Source of the DNA: an uncultured Prevotellaceae bacterium
GTDB taxonomy: Bacteria; Bacteroidota; Bacteroidia; Bacteroidales; Bacteroidaceae
Reading direction: 5' to 3'
DNA length: 60,484 bases
Assembly: GCA_946406585.1 (NCBI GenBank)
Contig: CAMJLI010000001.1
Location: forward strand, 1-60,484
In this document: piece by piece, positions 14,583-46,981 of the stretch
Position numbering within the stretch: position 1 is the first letter of the stretch
How the letters are laid out: the number at the start of each line of letters is the position of its first letter
Translations under genes and position numbers: made by a program
Notes under the pieces: model-generated
What the model was told of the DNA's origin: nothing
The model's database searches: none
The model's input: only the letters and a program-made list of their open reading frames with translations

Positions 14583-14762
14583 TTATTCTTCAGTCTCTTC
14601 GTCCTCTCCCCATACACTCTTGCTAGTTGGGAATTTGTCATAATTCGACTCCCAGCCTCCTTCATTTGCAAGTGGTTCTGAAATGACTGGCGGCTCAAGC
14701 AATGGGTCTTTGACGTTAATGTCCACAAATCTTGACTCAGGATTCTGATAATTTTTTTTCAT
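14583..14762 (-). CDS. Small MKKxYxNP-type protein A (59 residues)
   Basis: A 59-codon frame, too short for most gene callers. It starts MKKNYQNPESRFVDINV and ends in an acidic tail after KFPTSKSVWGEDEE. It has no signal peptide or membrane segment. It is probably real for three reasons. It has its own well-formed promoter (14869-14899) and the men terminator at its 3' end. A second gene of the same plan (18144-18320) is nearby: same MKKxYxNP start, a GG pair mid-protein and a Lys-x-x-Trp near the end. Both follow large secreted-protein genes on the same strand. I do not know its function; a secretion-associated partner or a peptide precursor are the ideas worth testing. Confidence 0.65.
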   Translation of the reverse strand: MKKNYQNPESRFVDINVKDPLLEPPVISEPLANEGGWESNYDKFPTSKSVWGEDEETEE

Positions 14763-14868
14763 GATGTTGTGTTGTATTTATTATTGTTTATATTCTATTT
14801 AATATGAAGTCTTGATATTTCCGTATTTCCAATTTGAAGGGAATCTCTCGGTTTGTTCAATAACGATG

Positions 14869-14899
14869 CAAATTTATAAAAAAATATGTTTGCCGCAAA
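14869..14899 (-). promoter_or_regulatory. Promoter for small protein A
   Basis: On the minus strand TTTG, a 19-base spacer and TAAATTTG match the Bacteroidetes -33/-7 consensus closely. Transcription would begin near 14862, giving a leader of about 100 nt. Apart from this promoter the 200-base gap 14763-14962 shows nothing else. Confidence 0.7.
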
Positions 14900-14962
14900 G
14901 AATTTCTTGCTATTTTTCCAATTTTTTTCTTTTTTTATTTGTTTTTGTTTCTCCTTGTGAAT

Positions 14963-16795
14963 TTATTGATGTGCCAGTATATAGTTTACAACCCACATCA
15001 TGTCAATAACATTGATCTTATTGTCGAAGTCAGTGTCACCATTGGTGAAATTGAACACTTCTTGCGGGATTTCGAGTATGTAGTTGGCGATGGCTAGCAC
15101 ATCGATGATGTTTACAAAGCCGTCTTCATTCACGTCTCCCAATAGAGGCTCTATGTCATTTTTTGTGAATTTTATCTCATTCTTAGGCCTCCTTACCTTG
15201 GATACGTCAAGATAGCAAGTGTTGTTGGCTATGTAGGTGAGAGTCACATAGTTGTGGGCATCATCCTTGATGTTTTCGTTGGTGAAGGCTGCTTTGTCAT
15301 TGCTCAATACACGCATGGTTTGTGGGTCGAACAATGTGCGGTAGTTGCTCTCATCATCTGATCCGTCCTTAAAGTATATTTCACCTTTTAGCAGGTTGGT
15401 GCCTGTTAATTCAGCGGGGTCGGTGACCAAAGGCAGCAGACGGTTGTTCTTGACCTCTGTGCTGTTGCATTCAAGAATGACAGGGGTCTTGGCAGGCACA
15501 ATGCCATCTTGCACTTCCACCAAGTGGGCATTGCCATCAGAACGAATCTTGTCTACGGTATAGGCTTTCACTCCATCAAGACAACGATACGGGAAGGCGG
15601 TGTACATTGTAGTGTAGTATTTGCCATCTTGTGTTGTTTGTGGTGACGGCAATGCTCCAAAATAATACTTGTCCAGGTTTTCCTCGTTAAGTACATGGAA
15701 TCGCCATCTGTATGTCACTTCGTCGTTGGGCCTGTTGTAGATGTTGGGATAGCGTATCGGGCCTATCAGCTCCATGTCACCTTTTGTGGTTTTGTCGGCA
15801 TTGTCTTTTAGGTAACCGGTAAATCCCTGGGCACGACCATAAACGAAGTAGTCAAGAGTGTCATATTTTTCAATGTTGAAACTCAGATTGATAGCTTCGT
15901 ATGTGGATGTGCCTTGTCCTTCGATGTTTACTCCATTGAAACCACCAGTTCCTGTTGGGGTGCCTTTTATCTTGAGCACCAAAGCAGGTGTGGAATGTGC
16001 TTTTTTGTGTGATCCATCTATGAGCACCATGGTGTTGTAGAAATTCCGTTGCTCTTCGGTGATGCTGTCTTTGACATTTCCCGTAACACCAAGATATTTG
16101 TGCTGGTACATGTTCTCAAGATAAACGTACAATCCGTCTGTTTCTATATTGTTGGATTCAAAAACAGCTGTGTAGTGGCCTTTGTTCGACGAGGTCACCA
16201 CTGTGGTGTACGGATTGTCTGGTATGAGTGTAGGCGAGTCTTCATGCCGCCATCCAATAAATCGCCCATATAGGTGGTCTGGGTGGGCTGTCAGGGTTAC
16301 ACTATCTCCTATCTTGTTGGTTGGGTTGCTGCTCTCAACAGTGCCATACATGTCGTTAGACGAAGTACAGTATATTTCCCCCAAGGGTGCAAAATAGGCT
16401 TTGTAATTAGTAATACTTGGCTTTGTCTCGTCTGTTGACAATACTGTTACCAGGTCTGTGGTGTTTGCTGCATGGCTGATTATGGTTTCTGAGCCATTTT
16501 TATCAACTTTTGTCCAATGCATGAATTGGTAGCCAACCTCGGGTTGGGCAAACAGATATGCGGTCACTGAGACAGCTTCTACTTGAACTTTCAGTGATTC
16601 GCTATATTTGTAGGTCGTGTATTCCTTGTTTAGCTTGTTGGTCTCAAGACTGTCTTTGTTGCTAACGTATACTTTGCCTTGGCCTGTTGGAGTGGCTTCA
16701 GCATGAAATTTGTAATAGAATGTTGGACCCATTGCGTAACTGCTTATAATTGACAGAAAACACAAAGAAAATAGGGTGATTAGTTTTGCTTTCAT
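14963..16795 (-). CDS. Large secreted protein with dockerin-type repeats
   Basis: A 610-residue exported protein. Residues 1-21 are a signal peptide (MKAKLITLFSLCFLSIISSYA). Residues of about 25-215 contain two or three beta-rich units ending in phrases such as GYQFMHWTKVD, ITNYKAYFAP, GRFIGWRHED and GHYTAVFES, the look of divergent InlB-type B repeats. A central domain follows with DGKYYTTMYTAFPYR (about 388) and GIVPAKTPVILEC (about 430), shared with the secreted protein at 18340-20046. Residues of about 549-608 are a dockerin type I pair: GDVNEDGFVNIIDVLAIANYIL and GDTDFDNKINVIDMMWVVNYIL, each with the Asp/Asn calcium-loop pattern. There is no T9SS tail. Function is unknown; adhesion or glycan-related surface roles are guesses. 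Confidence 0.8.
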   Translation of the reverse strand: MKAKLITLFSLCFLSIISSYAMGPTFYYKFHAEATPTGQGKVYVSNKDSLETNKLNKEYTTYKYSESLKVQVEAVSVTAYLFAQPEVGYQFMHWTKVDKNGSETIISHAANTTDLVTVLSTDETKPSITNYKAYFAPLGEIYCTSSNDMYGTVESSNPTNKIGDSVTLTAHPDHLYGRFIGWRHEDSPTLIPDNPYTTVVTSSNKGHYTAVFESNNIETDGLYVYLENMYQHKYLGVTGNVKDSITEEQRNFYNTMVLIDGSHKKAHSTPALVLKIKGTPTGTGGFNGVNIEGQGTSTYEAINLSFNIEKYDTLDYFVYGRAQGFTGYLKDNADKTTKGDMELIGPIRYPNIYNRPNDEVTYRWRFHVLNEENLDKYYFGALPSPQTTQDGKYYTTMYTAFPYRCLDGVKAYTVDKIRSDGNAHLVEVQDGIVPAKTPVILECNSTEVKNNRLLPLVTDPAELTGTNLLKGEIYFKDGSDDESNYRTLFDPQTMRVLSNDKAAFTNENIKDDAHNYVTLTYIANNTCYLDVSKVRRPKNEIKFTKNDIEPLLGDVNEDGFVNIIDVLAIANYILEIPQEVFNFTNGDTDFDNKINVIDMMWVVNYILAHQ

Positions 16796-16838
16796 CTTTT
16801 TCTTGAACTTTTATTTTGGATATTCCCACAATACGTTG

Positions 16839-16846
16839 CAAAGTTA
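16839..16846 (-). promoter_or_regulatory. -7 element (TAACTTTG) for the dockerin protein
   Basis: Minus-strand TAACTTTG lies 44-51 bases upstream of the start at 16795. The -33 position is poor and falls near the end of the DUF4105-like gene. Confidence 0.4.
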
Positions 16847-16863
16847 TACATTTTTTTTCATTA

Positions 16864-18057
16864 TCATGCTTTGCATCCAACTTTTTTTATTTTGACATAA
16901 TGGCTTATGGTGCGGATGAGGAATGATGTAGCTATCAATTGATGAGGTATGTCGAGTTGTGAGAGACATGGGGTGGCCATAAGAAATGCCAGGAGGATTA
17001 TGGTGTATGCAAGATACACAAGTTTCATTGACTTGCTCTTGTGGAAAAGCAGCCATATTATTAAAGGAATGGGATTGAAAGGTATAAGATACCAATTCCA
17101 ATGCATGCCGAAAAGATTGGCGGATATCGACATGTAAAGTAGGATGATGCCAAAGATGGTTTGCCCTGATAGTAATAATGCATCGATGATTTTTGCAGGT
17201 GCTGACAGATTGCATTTCCATTCTAATAAAGTGACAATCATCACCAAGATTAGCAAAATTGAGAAAAAGACTGTTGGGGACAACCATGACGGTTCGGGCA
17301 TTATTGTTGCTTCATTGTGGGTTGTCACTTCTCCTGTGAAAGCTGGTCTGCTTGCCCCGTTCTCGTCTACGAATCGTGTCTTGTCCAACACGTCGACCAA
17401 CATTTTGGGAGACAATTTGTATTCTATGTCAAAGTGCTTGTCGCTGGATGCACCGAATATGCTCATGAATATGAATTCACCCCATGGGGTGTCTTGTGTG
17501 TTGTAGCGGATGATGTCTCCATTGTCGTGGCTTAATATTTCCGGCAGCTGGCCAAAGTCCATTTGTTCCTCAATCAGTGAATTCTTAACCATCAAGTAGC
17601 ACATCATTACACAGTTGGTGTTGAGGAGGTTGAATGTGAGGTGAGGGGGTTTCACCATCTCTTCATCCAAATTCTTCCATAATAGTTGCTTTTCTGAGTG
17701 AGTGAGGTTTAATACATGTTCTGTTACTCCACGACCTTCAGATATGTATGAATCCAAGTATTCTTTTGTTGGAACGGCAACCACGGCTGCTTTGCCCTTG
17801 CCTGATAGGAACTCATAATAATCCATGGCTCCCGTACCCATTTCCAAGGAGAAGCAATAGTCCAAGTCTTCGCTAGGATATTGCATCCTTATGGCACAAT
17901 GCCCGAAAGAGGAATATAGGACATCTGTTGGGGTGCTAAGTAATATGCTTGCCACGATGGCTCGTGTGCTATCTGCAATCTGGCCATCCTTTTTAGTGCC
18001 AAATGCAAATGTTGTGGAGGCTATGAACCATAGGATTATAAAGAGTCTTTTCGCCAT
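16864..18057 (-). CDS. DUF4105 / Lnb-N-type periplasmic domain protein with membrane segments
   Basis: A 397-residue protein. A signal peptide (residues 1-20) precedes a periplasmic domain with the DUF4105 hallmarks: SSFGHCAIRMQYP (about 49-61) and FNLLNTNCVMMCY, whose His and Cys could be an active pair. The name comes from the N-terminal domain of a lacto-N-biosidase accessory protein; its chemistry is not settled. From about residue 258 there are four or five hydrophobic segments (SPTVFFSILLILVMIVTLLEW, LLLSGQTIFGIILLYMSISA, PFNPIPLIIWLLF, VYLAYTIILLAFLMATP), so the C-terminal half is embedded in the inner membrane. It lies between two secreted-protein/small-protein pairs but is separated from the upstream pair by a terminator. 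Confidence 0.75.
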   Translation of the reverse strand: MAKRLFIILWFIASTTFAFGTKKDGQIADSTRAIVASILLSTPTDVLYSSFGHCAIRMQYPSEDLDYCFSLEMGTGAMDYYEFLSGKGKAAVVAVPTKEYLDSYISEGRGVTEHVLNLTHSEKQLLWKNLDEEMVKPPHLTFNLLNTNCVMMCYLMVKNSLIEEQMDFGQLPEILSHDNGDIIRYNTQDTPWGEFIFMSIFGASSDKHFDIEYKLSPKMLVDVLDKTRFVDENGASRPAFTGEVTTHNEATIMPEPSWLSPTVFFSILLILVMIVTLLEWKCNLSAPAKIIDALLLSGQTIFGIILLYMSISANLFGMHWNWYLIPFNPIPLIIWLLFHKSKSMKLVYLAYTIILLAFLMATPCLSQLDIPHQLIATSFLIRTISHYVKIKKVGCKA

Positions 18058-18087
18058 GTCTGTATTTGTTTGTTGTTCTAAAATCCA

Positions 18088-18120
18088 AAAGAAGGTGGTG
18101 AATTGCTCACCACCTTCTTT
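18088..18120 (-). terminator. Terminator after small protein B
   Basis: A perfect 14-bp stem (AAAGAAGGTGGTGA and its complement) with a 5-base loop lies 24 bases after the small gene's stop. It separates that transcript from the DUF4105-like gene, though read-through is possible. Confidence 0.75.
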
Positions 18121-18143
18121 CTAATATTGGATTGGTCTTTTTA

Positions 18144-18320
18144 TTAGTCCCAAGTTCCCTTGTTGCTGAACATGTCGTCTACGGCATCCTCATATTGGTT
18201 GTCACCTTGTACGCCCCCAACAGGGATATAAGAGGTGTTGCCAAATAATTCGTTAAGCACATTGTGCTTCAGGCTCAAGGTCATGACCTTGCAAGCGGGG
18301 TTGATATATTGCTTCTTCAT
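18144..18320 (-). CDS. Small MKKxYxNP-type protein B (58 residues)
   Basis: A 58-codon frame that starts MKKQYINPACKVMTLSLK and ends DMFSNKGTWD. It begins 19 bases after the stop of the T9SS-tailed secreted protein (18340-20046) and ends just before a strong terminator, so the two form a closed two-gene transcript. It shares its plan with small protein A: the MKKxYxNP start, a GG pair in the middle, acidic residues, and a Trp three residues after a Lys near the C-terminus. It has no signal peptide or membrane helix. Position and the second copy argue for a real gene; the function is unknown. Confidence 0.72.
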   Translation of the reverse strand: MKKQYINPACKVMTLSLKHNVLNELFGNTSYIPVGGVQGDNQYEDAVDDMFSNKGTWD

Positions 18321-18339
18321 AATTCAAACGTGATTTTTA

Positions 18340-20046
18340 TTATTTGATGACCATTTTCTTACCGTTCACGATATACAGACCCTTTGTAGGATTGTTGACG
18401 ATGCGACCTTGAATGTCGTAAATCTGAGTGTTCTCTACCTCAGCAGCGTTCACTTCGCTGATGCCAGTGATTTCGTCGAGGATGTAGATGTTAGCTCGTG
18501 CTGTCTCGTCATCAAGAATCATGAATGCTCTGTTGGCAAGCAATGTGCCACCATTGTACTTGAAGAATCCGAGTGGGTTAAGAGTGTTCTTGCCTCTGTT
18601 GAATACGCGGAGATACTTTCTTTGAACAGGTGTGCCAACCTCTGGATAGCCATTGGCGTCGATTGGACGAATCTTGTAGATGAATTCGTCTGCATCATCA
18701 GCTGTGTTGCCACCATCGAAGTCCTCAGCAAAGAAGATACCTCTCAAGAATGAACGGTCGGTCTCGTCTTGGATGGCCTTGTTCACATCTTCCTCTACTG
18801 GGCTGCCAGCAGGATTGAGGAGGTTGTTGACATGTGCTGTTGACAAGCATTCTACAACAACTGGAGTGCGGGCGGGAACTACACCTTTGTATTCCTTTGT
18901 GGTAACATAACCTACAGTCTCACCTGGGTTTGGTTGGGTTGATTGGAAAGAACCGAGTTTTGGTCCTTCGGGGATACCCCAAACACGTACGGTGTTATTA
19001 CCATTGTTTACAATCTCCATTGGGAAGTCTGTGTAGATGGTCTGATAGTAGTGGCCGTCAAGACCCTGAACGAATGCGTCAAGTGCGAAATAGTTGTAGT
19101 CGTCGGTCTCTGTTCCAGGAACGATTTTCTTGATGTACCACTTTGCAAAGTCACCAGCAACTTCGATTTCAGGAGTGTAACCTGTGACAGGATAGTCAAC
19201 AGTATTCTTGTTGGCGAAGCTTACGAACTCACCAGCAACAGGACCCATGTCGAATTTCTGTGTGTGGGTGTTGAAGTTTGTCTTAACGTGACCACCAATC
19301 AGATAGTAGGTGTGACCCATGTGGATACGGTTTGTGTATCCATGAAGTTCATACTCAAAGAAGTATTCCCATTCTGTCCAGAACTGCTCGTCACCAGCTT
19401 CATCGCAATAATCCCTCACGCTTTCATACATCATGTTCCACAGGTCTTGTTTAAGAGATGCATTGTCCTCTACAACACCCTTTTCAATCAGAATTGCTGC
19501 AAGTGGTGCAGGATCTGGTGTGGTGCTCTTCAGATAGAAAGCTTCGTTGCCTTGGCTGTCTGTTGTGGGCTCCATGTACATTTTCATCAAATTGAACATG
19601 TCCTCAAGAACTTGCTCACGCTCCTCCTTGCTAAGACCCCAATTGTTGTGGCTGTTGGCATAGCTCAATCCGCGAGAGAAGCCTTCCTTCATCAAGGCAA
19701 CAATAGGACCATAAACAGCCTTGGAAGCGTCAACTGCTTGTGAGCGAAGGTTTAGAACTTCCAAATCCTCAGCAGTTACATCGATGTAAGGACGCTCGGG
19801 ATCCTCAGCATCAGCTTTTACAGCATTAACATAGAGCACTGTTCCAGGCATTGTCACTGCATCAACCTCTTTTGCTTGAGGCTGGGCCGTAGTCGGCGAT
19901 GTAACGTTCATAACACCTGTTCCTCTTGCATTGAGGTAACCAACGTTGATGGCACGATAATAGCCGTCAAAATCCTGGCCATTAACACCAACGCTCATCG
20001 CCGTGGCAACAAACGTCAATAATAAACCTTTTGTAAATTTTCTCAT
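18340..20046 (-). CDS. Large secreted protein with T9SS C-terminal sorting tail
   Basis: A 568-residue exported protein with a signal peptide (MRKFTKGLLLTFVATAMSVGVNG). The last 40 residues (GISEVNAAE, then YDIQGRIVNNPTKGLYIVNGKKMVIK in part) are the short C-terminal sorting domain typical of Prevotella cargo of the type IX secretion system. That implies export across the outer membrane. Residues of about 329-460 include DGHYYQTIYTDFP and GVVPARTPVVVEC, matching the dockerin protein at 14963-16795. The N-terminal half is rich in Glu, Asp and Asn and in helices (EEREQVLEDMFNLMKMYM) and is not recognised. It has a strong promoter upstream, and the small gene follows in the same transcript. Confidence 0.82.
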   Translation of the reverse strand: MRKFTKGLLLTFVATAMSVGVNGQDFDGYYRAINVGYLNARGTGVMNVTSPTTAQPQAKEVDAVTMPGTVLYVNAVKADAEDPERPYIDVTAEDLEVLNLRSQAVDASKAVYGPIVALMKEGFSRGLSYANSHNNWGLSKEEREQVLEDMFNLMKMYMEPTTDSQGNEAFYLKSTTPDPAPLAAILIEKGVVEDNASLKQDLWNMMYESVRDYCDEAGDEQFWTEWEYFFEYELHGYTNRIHMGHTYYLIGGHVKTNFNTHTQKFDMGPVAGEFVSFANKNTVDYPVTGYTPEIEVAGDFAKWYIKKIVPGTETDDYNYFALDAFVQGLDGHYYQTIYTDFPMEIVNNGNNTVRVWGIPEGPKLGSFQSTQPNPGETVGYVTTKEYKGVVPARTPVVVECLSTAHVNNLLNPAGSPVEEDVNKAIQDETDRSFLRGIFFAEDFDGGNTADDADEFIYKIRPIDANGYPEVGTPVQRKYLRVFNRGKNTLNPLGFFKYNGGTLLANRAFMILDDETARANIYILDEITGISEVNAAEVENTQIYDIQGRIVNNPTKGLYIVNGKKMVIK

Positions 20047-20202: not shown

Positions 20203-20233
20203 CAAATTTATAAACTCTTTCTGAATTGACAAA
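20203..20233 (-). promoter_or_regulatory. Promoter for the T9SS-tailed protein and small protein B
   Basis: Minus-strand TTTG, a 19-base spacer and TAAATTTG form a near-perfect Bacteroidetes promoter. Transcription would start near 20196, giving a leader of about 150 nt. The gap 20047-20313 holds only this promoter, the leader and A/T-rich DNA. Confidence 0.72.
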
Positions 20234-46552: not shown

Positions 46553-46981
46553 TTAGGAAACAAGTATCAGCTCTACAAGTAATGATATGTCAGCTACTGT
46601 TATTTCTCCGTTGGAATCAAGGTCGCCACGCTCCTCAACAAGCTTAATGCTTTCTTCGTCAGTCTGCATGGCACCTAATATATATTTAACCAACAAGGTG
46701 ACATCCGTGACTGATAATTCACCATCATTGTTCACATCGCCCATCATGAAAGATGAGTTGTTGGAAAAATACATCTTGGTTAGGTCTTCCAATGATATGA
46801 CATGGTTTTCTGTGCCATTTACAGCTTTCAGCATTCCATCTTTGAATGTGATAACTGTACCAACGGCTGTAATATTCTCTTTTGATCCGTTCGCTTTCTC
46901 GAATGTAAGAAATGTGTAGTCGTCTGCATAGACTGAACTTTCAATAACAAATGCCATGAGCAAGGCAAATATGTATCTCAT
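46553..46981 (-). CDS. Small secreted protein with dockerin-type repeats
   Basis: A 142-residue exported protein. Signal peptide (MRYIFALLMAFVIESSVYA), a beta-rich module (YTFLTFEKANGSKENITAVGTVITFKDGML, about 20-65) ending ISLEDLTKMYFSN, then a dockerin type I pair. The two loops are GDVNNDGELSVTDVTLLVKYIL and GDLDSNGEITVADISLLVELIL, both with Asp/Asn at calcium positions. The beta-module plus dockerin layout is common at the C-termini of larger Prevotella secreted proteins; here it is the whole protein. No cohesin domain is seen in the window. Confidence 0.82.
   Translation of the reverse strand: MRYIFALLMAFVIESSVYADDYTFLTFEKANGSKENITAVGTVITFKDGMLKAVNGTENHVISLEDLTKMYFSNNSSFMMGDVNNDGELSVTDVTLLVKYILGAMQTDEESIKLVEERGDLDSNGEITVADISLLVELILVS

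Follow-up and report, generated by a model that had tools for sequence, protein, structure and literature searches.

Introduction

Linear polyphosphorylated peptides (LPPs), a kind of ribosomally synthesised and post-translationally modified peptide (RiPP), were described in 2026 as confined to Bacillota, their role being unknown (PMC13381572). Their core gene set comprises SpI, a RiPP recognition element (RRE), an HprK-like kinase, an NTP transferase and an MsbA-like transporter; according to the same source, the kinase targets Ser3, the leader is cut off by the peptidase, and the discrete RREs of lasso systems bind the motif [Y/W]xxPx[L/V/I/A/F/Y] (PMC13381572). The Bsf phosphorylated lasso precursors carry YxxPxL at positions -17 to -12 and are phosphorylated on Ser3 (PMC10368454). 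Here, we compare with these systems two small genes, S58 (58 aa, 18144..18320) and S59 (59 aa, 14583..14762), located in a 60,484-nt stretch of contig CAMJLI010000001.1 from a rumen Prevotella, hereafter referred to as the window; these genes and all the other parts listed below lie on its minus strand. In our opinion, S58 and S59 are probably members of an LPP-like RiPP precursor family which is encoded apart from its enzymes and mostly directly after the gene of a secreted protein, or cargo, of the type IX secretion system (T9SS). A preliminary description of this DNA had offered chaperones, anti-sigma-like sensors and precursor peptides as roles for the two products; precursor peptide is the best supported of these, by the leader motif, the LPP-type cassette and a locus named L324, and the earlier interpretation as a whole is partly supported.

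Results

A small-protein family beside genes with T9SS-like tails

The plan of this genome-wide Prevotella family consists of an MKKxYxxP start, a variable acidic middle and a Trp near the end. In the four S58-bearing genomes (G001-G004), the corresponding DNA pattern occurred 8 to 16 times per genome, and the reversed pattern 0 to 2 times. The 48 strict hits in these genomes gave 45 rows (L046, L050 and one contig-edge hit were omitted) and 44 open reading frames (ORFs) of at most 100 aa, four antisense-looking frames (MKKRYxAPSC) included; 30 of the 44 start within 100 nt 3' of a gene with a T9SS type A-like tail, as defined by a tail pattern written after those genes had been seen. In 37 further family genomes, and with a tail model built from the first four, 44/79 ORFs lay within 100 nt of a tail gene and 2 more within 700 nt, the rest following something else (22) or having no upstream ORF in range (11). 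This sample was drawn from 11 genomes with at least 5 hits (5 hits near contig ends being omitted) and from one locus in each of 30 genomes, after 18 hits of less than 35 or more than 100 aa had been skipped and one duplicate removed; antisense and unrelated frames remain in it. In G115, a genome from the order-wide sample, 11 of 15 members follow a tail gene within 150 nt. By chance, a tail gene would be expected upstream of about 3% of genes, an estimate which assumes some 3900 genes per genome (a guess) and lower-bound tail counts, i.e. at least 108 to at least 140 tails per genome with model A3, derived from G001-G004. Looking in the reverse direction, 17 of 40 high-scoring tail genes without a strict hit were found to have a looser partner, for example MKKYxxP.

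The preliminary description had asked whether such frames lie directly after T9SS-tailed genes, and the three counts above give a strongly positive answer; its central guess, a secretion-linked small-protein family, holds far beyond the window. Both the existence of the MKKxYxxP family and its position next to T9SS-tailed genes are well supported. Taken together, the 85 linked proteins have a median length of 59 aa and a median gap of 21 nt (range -4 to 99); 74 of them have a Trp within the last 12 residues, and beyond residue 15 their net charge has a median of -7. Members standing alone or behind other genes, as seen in the 79-ORF sample, would suit conserved small ORFs of unrelated role which merely share transcripts with secreted-protein genes, but we regard this explanation as very improbable in view of the enrichment after tail genes and of the joint inheritance with cargo. 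Stand-alone proteins of 45 aa, alike in two genomes and not located 3' of a tail gene, were observed at L027 and L045 (MKKTYFQP..., MKKFYAQP...).

Leader motif and start of the core

The YxxP motif, which is itself part of the search pattern, occupies residues 5-8 of both S58 (18297..18308) and S59 (14739..14750). Of 65 non-redundant members, 24 carry L, V, I, F or A as the second residue after the proline (P+2), or 41 with Met allowed, and residue +16 is hydrophobic in 59. Serine peaks at Tyr+19 (25/65). The Tyr-to-Ser3 spacing which we computed from the Bsf precursor positions given in PMC10368454 is also Tyr+19, and the LPP consensus (PMC13381572) gives Ser at Tyr+18. An [AC]-x-S motif at +17/+19 was present in 18/65 members, against 0.49 expected and at most 4 in 2000 shuffles, this motif having been noticed in the same 65-member data in which it was counted. 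G115 had played no part in finding the motif; there, it was present in 11 of 15 members, and 2 more had it shifted by one. Six YxxP or WxxP genes near RRE genes were moreover picked by eye among the neighbourhoods listed, and 6/6 had Ala or Cys at +17 together with Ser, Cys or Thr at +19.

Kinase, peptidase and RRE cassette

PqqD-like genes were found in 54 of the 61 family genomes, and HprK-like and peptidase-like genes in 46 each. An HprK-like kinase and an S24/S26-like peptidase adjoin the RRE in 12 of the 20 PqqD neighbourhoods read, and several of these cassettes stand beside a gene which we take to be rpoD. In G001 (L301), RRE, HprK-like kinase and SpI-like archaeal-type peptidase lie side by side, as named from weak matches to HprK-related kinase A, archaeal signal peptidase I and a lasso PqqD chaperone. 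In G002-G004, the HprK-like gene adjoins a gene that is peptidase-like to judge by its sequence. The HprK-like gene was present in each of the four S58-bearing genomes searched, and all three cassette genes were checked fully in one of them. One peptidase passes PF00717. Searched against PDB, the RRE profile matched, at E 0.1, TfuB1 (3.5e-6), PbaB1 (0.013), LppB (0.025) and TbiB1 (0.05), and neither kinase nor peptidase had a significant match there. Lasso peptides proper were rejected for lack of the lasso leader peptidase B2 (PF13471), which had no match in G001 and passed its cut-off in two of the 61 genomes.

A complete LPP-type gene set with a small gene in front is that of L324:1522-6031, in a Bacteroidales genome (G023), where an MKKxYxxP gene is followed, on one strand, by HprK-like, peptidase, RRE, NTP_transf_5 and MsbA-like ATP-binding cassette (ABC) transporter genes. 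Its precursor-like gene, directly 5' of the HprK-like gene, encodes MKKLYTSPEIEVVEV...GFAASE. Similar LPP-type sets occur in L326 and L327, with no precursor seen in front; NTP transferase and MsbA-like transporter are both present in L324 and L327, and in L326 by length and position. In L304 and L325, an ABC transporter alone stands beside the cassette. Among the ORFs listed for the 60-kb window there is no cassette, and in G001 it lies on contig C146 and S58 on C97; since S58 and S59 have no cassette beside them, a precursor inside its own cluster is found in L324 and not for these two genes.

Across the 61 genomes, the mean number of strict hits was 4.0 in those with a strong HprK-like match (1e-100, n=28) vs. 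1.15 in the others (n=33; p 7.6e-6), this cut being one of two tried and these co-occurrence statistics ignoring kinship. With the 1e-60 cut, the means were 3.0 (n=43) and 1.17 (n=18; p 0.005), and they were 2.95 with SprA (n=38) and 1.65 without it (n=23; p 0.013). In the order sample, an HprK-like gene was detected in 8/149 genomes, among them G115, the richest in hits.

Other neighbourhoods of PqqD-like genes were observed in passing. L305:4983-5910 and L311:4986-5884 encode WxxPxF proteins of 140-145 aa that have Ala-x-Cys at +17/+19 and adjoin a 130-aa PqqD-like protein; they possibly represent another RiPP type. Loci L316-L319 were included for sharing a contig with a hit. L318:5269-9163 is a RiPP-like cluster with PqqD-like, HprK-like and peptidase-like genes, a 148-aa YxxP protein with Cys and a radical S-adenosylmethionine protein. 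L300:2824-6226 and L319:2914-8433 hold PqqD-like genes in apparent capsule-export loci (by eye), together with a large protein resembling NTP transferases.

Conservation of S58 and S59

S58 and S59 are real, conserved, homologous genes: the S58 profile matches the S59 profile at 96.5% (E 8.7e-10). The common start quoted for both in the preliminary description was found as given. Among the matches listed, S58 had 58 homologues and S59 had 4. A contig scan with the S58 alignment retrieved 21 loci, all titled Prevotella or Prevotellaceae (two from one assembly), in which the T9 gene was kept in 19/21, the dockerin gene in 20/21 and S59 in 18/21; contig ends truncate L008, L012 and L013, and L020 begins inside S58. 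As far as the contigs reach, the order is aroB, T9-tailed gene, S58, dockerin gene, S59 and a convergent OSB-CoA-synthase-like gene. In L020:2142-2383, the dockerin gene is followed by the convergent gene with no S59 in between. A near-identical tandem copy of the pair formed by T9 cargo and S58 was seen in L006:6416-10258, and diverged extra S58 paralogues, in tandem between the cargo gene and S58, in L002:6913-7086, L003:7598-7986 and L004:7799-7978.

Purifying selection, on which the preliminary description had made its proposal depend, acts on both small genes, with a ratio of nonsynonymous to synonymous substitution rates (dN/dS) of about 0.2. The medians were 0.18 for S58 (21 sequences) and 0.22 for S59 (19 sequences), calculated on the pairs with unsaturated dS (177/210 and 87/171, respectively). 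In the alignments of relatives, invariant residues are spread along the length of both proteins. The structure predicted for S58 was uninformative, with a mean predicted local distance difference test (pLDDT) score of 54, compatible with disorder. No Pfam or NCBIfam family matched S58 or S59, and no curated family matched either of them, or their 71 relatives, beyond chance. A profile search of 5.8 billion proteins yielded 95 matches at E 1; the names among the matches listed were "hypothetical protein", except for one "Mor family transcriptional regulator" label. Among open-licence PMC papers, we recognised none describing these small genes.

Two likenesses between the window proteins fared differently. 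A Lys-x-x-Trp near the C-terminus is present in both (KGTW, KSVW). The GG reported for both is there as well, but it is not kept in the relatives of either: the GG common to S58 and S59 is a coincidence of these two sequences, and GG peptides were rejected on this ground.

Gene order and transcription signals in the window

The gene order announced for this region was confirmed, all on the minus strand. It begins with the gene of a 568-aa secreted protein (18340..20046), the cargo, which has a T9SS type A-like tail (...VYDIQGR..GLYIVNGKKMVIK type). S58 follows 19 nt 3' of it, and is itself followed by the gene of an Lnb-type (lipoprotein N-acyltransferase-like, DUF4105) membrane protein (16864..18057) and by that of a 610-aa secreted protein with InlB-like repeats and a C-terminal dockerin (14963..16795). 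S59 then lies 200 nt 3' of this dockerin gene. Although the Lnb-type gene stands between the two pairs in the window, it was found in just 13/21 orthologous loci. Regarding the domain said to be common to the large partners, the 568-aa homologue from L001 indeed matches the 610-aa protein of the window (33.7% over 98 aa, E 2.8e-9).

A motif TTTG-N19-TAAATTTG lies 156 nt 5' of the start of the 568-aa gene (20203..20233), as a promoter motif of this gene and, most likely, of S58, and the same motif lies 106 nt 5' of the S59 start (14869..14899). The former was found in 20/20 loci and the latter, as TTTG-N19/20-TAAATTTG, in 19/19, with a TAATTTTG variant in two. In none of 20 loci do the 150 nt 5' of S58 (in the window, the 200 nt) contain such a site, and at the comparison genes it occurred in 1/10 (Lnb gene) and 3/17 (dockerin gene). 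A promoter motif 5' of the cargo gene and of S59, with none 5' of S58, indicates that S58 is most likely part of the cargo gene's transcript and S59 most likely its own unit. The reading of this region as a duplicated two-gene unit is thus correct by half: it agrees with the homology of the small genes and with the domain common to the large ones, but not with the conserved promoter motif that S59 has to itself. Similarly, the terminator placed 3' of S58 corresponds to a terminator-like hairpin (18097..18114), but such sites are not above shuffle level in the region (6 vs. 6.3 in shuffles).

Apart from S58 and S59, no small partner of the MKKxYxxP family was seen in the window. A 142-aa secreted-looking protein with a dockerin-like repeat at its end is encoded at 46553-46981 (minus strand).

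Cargo proteins and their tails

The 56 cargo proteins belong to many Pfam families, each seen in at most 2 members, including C10 peptidase, pectinesterase, BspA-type leucine-rich repeat, GLUG, Big_2 and laminin-G. Their tails resemble C-terminal domain (CTD) motifs. The TIGR04183 cut-off was passed by 1/10 tails; the full 568-aa protein had no match to TIGR04183 or PF18962 at E 1, and the tail of its G001 ortholog reached E 0.018 and 15 bits, below the cut-off of 23. SprA was found in 38 of the 61 family genomes, G001 among them. In the predicted fold of the 568-aa protein the tail is poorly modelled, and the best PDB match had E 0.57. The similarity of the small proteins tracks that of the cargo body (r 0.47) more than that of the tail (r 0.23; partial 0.12), over 62 pairs with related pairs included, and pairing through the tail alone was judged weak on this partial r. 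Cohesin-like secreted proteins (by eye) adjoin tail or small genes in L240 and L316:5639-6703, and other secreted proteins carry dockerins.

Discussion

How the family might work

The family is likely to consist of LPP-like precursors, to judge from leader, core start and cassette; for S58 and S59, processing of this kind is less sure. From a mechanistic point of view, the N-terminal YxxP leader would be bound by the discrete, PqqD-like RRE of a chromosomal cassette of HprK-like kinase, archaeal-type signal peptidase and RRE; the kinase would phosphorylate a Ser early in the core, and the peptidase would remove the leader. An acidic, Trp-ended core peptide would then be released and used with the neighbouring cargo. 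We infer translation, RRE binding, phosphorylation, cleavage, export and cargo interaction from the genes.

Several observations weigh against this interpretation. Concerning the enzymes, the kinase and peptidase names are sub-threshold matches and sequence motifs, and the rpoD-side cassettes read have no adjoining transporter or NTP transferase. L324 aside, the link between the small genes and the cassette is a co-occurrence that ignores kinship. Of the 8 order genomes with an HprK-like gene, six contain just 1-2 strict hits; G001 was the centre of the order-sample draw, so that G115 alone is an independent success, with a chance of 0.047 (the gene occurs in 7 of the remaining 148). In G195, which has 5 hits, neither an HprK-like nor a peptidase-like gene was found, and G161 has 12 hits and the cassette, but no SprA was found. 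In L324, the Ser stands not at Tyr+19 but at Tyr+18, which in our reading of PMC13381572 is the LPP spacing. Two lasso-precursor models gave one match each among 71 small proteins (E 0.014-0.017), i.e. at chance level, and it was these matches that drew attention to the leader. The [AC]-x-S core start was shown by 2/16 looser partners, 16 of the 17 being included in this check.

In the window proteins themselves, P+2 is Cys (S58) or Ser (S59), and [AC]-x-S at +17/+19 is absent from both; their processing is less certain for want of this core start. S58 and S59 might instead descend from precursors and perhaps still bind the RRE, uncut and unphosphorylated, with a regulatory or adaptor role in the pathway or in secretion. 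The lack of these features in proteins that have the YxxP start and the Trp end, under purifying selection and with invariant residues along their length, would suit such diverged members, but the invariant Ser30 of S58, which follows Gly27-Asn28, could be the sign of a shifted core, and we find this explanation quite unlikely.

As for the cargo, TIGR04183 was matched at E 0.01 by 4/56 proteins, so that the assignment of the tails to T9SS relies on their likeness and on the presence of SprA, and S59 adjoins a dockerin protein without a T9SS-like tail. Finally, a similarity that follows the cargo body is as would be expected of a cargo-specific chaperone. Dedicated chaperones or escorts, i.e. 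small acidic proteins that would bind new cargo in the cytoplasm and keep it competent for export without being modified, are also in line with the tight linkage, with start/stop overlaps in some pairs, with the meeting of acidic small proteins and cargo tails that end in basic residues, and with the lack of an export signal in the small proteins, as seen by eye. Nevertheless, chaperones for such diverse cargo would need no single common YxxP start; they leave the Tyr-to-Ser spacing and the L324 arrangement unexplained, some members stand alone, and S59, whose neighbouring cargo has no such tail, possesses a promoter motif of its own. We therefore hold a chaperone role to be unlikely.

Beyond the membership of S58 and S59 in an LPP-like precursor family, we propose more tentatively, and at somewhat less than even chances, a Bacteroidota LPP-like phosphopeptide pathway whose precursors may have left their cluster and spread as T9SS cargo partners, each secreted or surface protein having its own modified peptide. 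This would be a RiPP system serving protein secretion, not a stand-alone natural-product cluster. The family points to a connection of protein secretion with modified peptides that can be put to the test. If true, many unannotated small Prevotella genes would be explained, and type IX secretion would face a new question, namely why the gene of a modified peptide follows that of a cargo.

Comparison with known systems

With G-[IVL]-Y-[IV]...KK...K at their end, the cargo tails resemble the last CTD motifs of the T9SS type A sorting domain (PF18962/TIGR04183; PMC10202324), but they are short and divergent. Double-glycine and other natural-product precursors and the NVEALT proteins of Bacteroidales (PMC10352776) are likewise small, multi-copy peptides; by contrast, GG is not conserved here, and 71 members have no Pfam or NCBIfam match beyond chance. 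The Bsf phosphorylated lasso peptides share the YxxPxL leader, the PqqD-like RRE, the kinase-phosphorylated Ser3 and a Tyr-to-Ser3 distance of 19 (PMC10368454), whereas B2 (PF13471) is over cut-off in just 2/61 family genomes, G156 and G183.

The closest likeness is to the LPPs of Bacillota (PMC13381572). Both have precursors with an N-terminal YxxPx motif and a variable C-terminus, and both have a discrete RRE, an HprK-like kinase and an archaeal-type signal peptidase, to which NTP transferase and ABC transporter are added in L324 and L327; many family members moreover show A-x-S at the presumed core start, as does LppA (AQS). By contrast, S58 and S59 are without A-x-S, and the rpoD-side cassettes read stand without adjoining transporter or NTP transferase. 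The family has a Trp-containing, acidic C-terminus and a Tyr-to-Ser distance mostly of 19, not 18. It belongs to Bacteroidota, with several dispersed precursors per genome, mostly after T9SS-tailed genes. If our reading of these genes as LPP-like precursors is true, the LPP kind would be extended to another phylum and given a cellular context.

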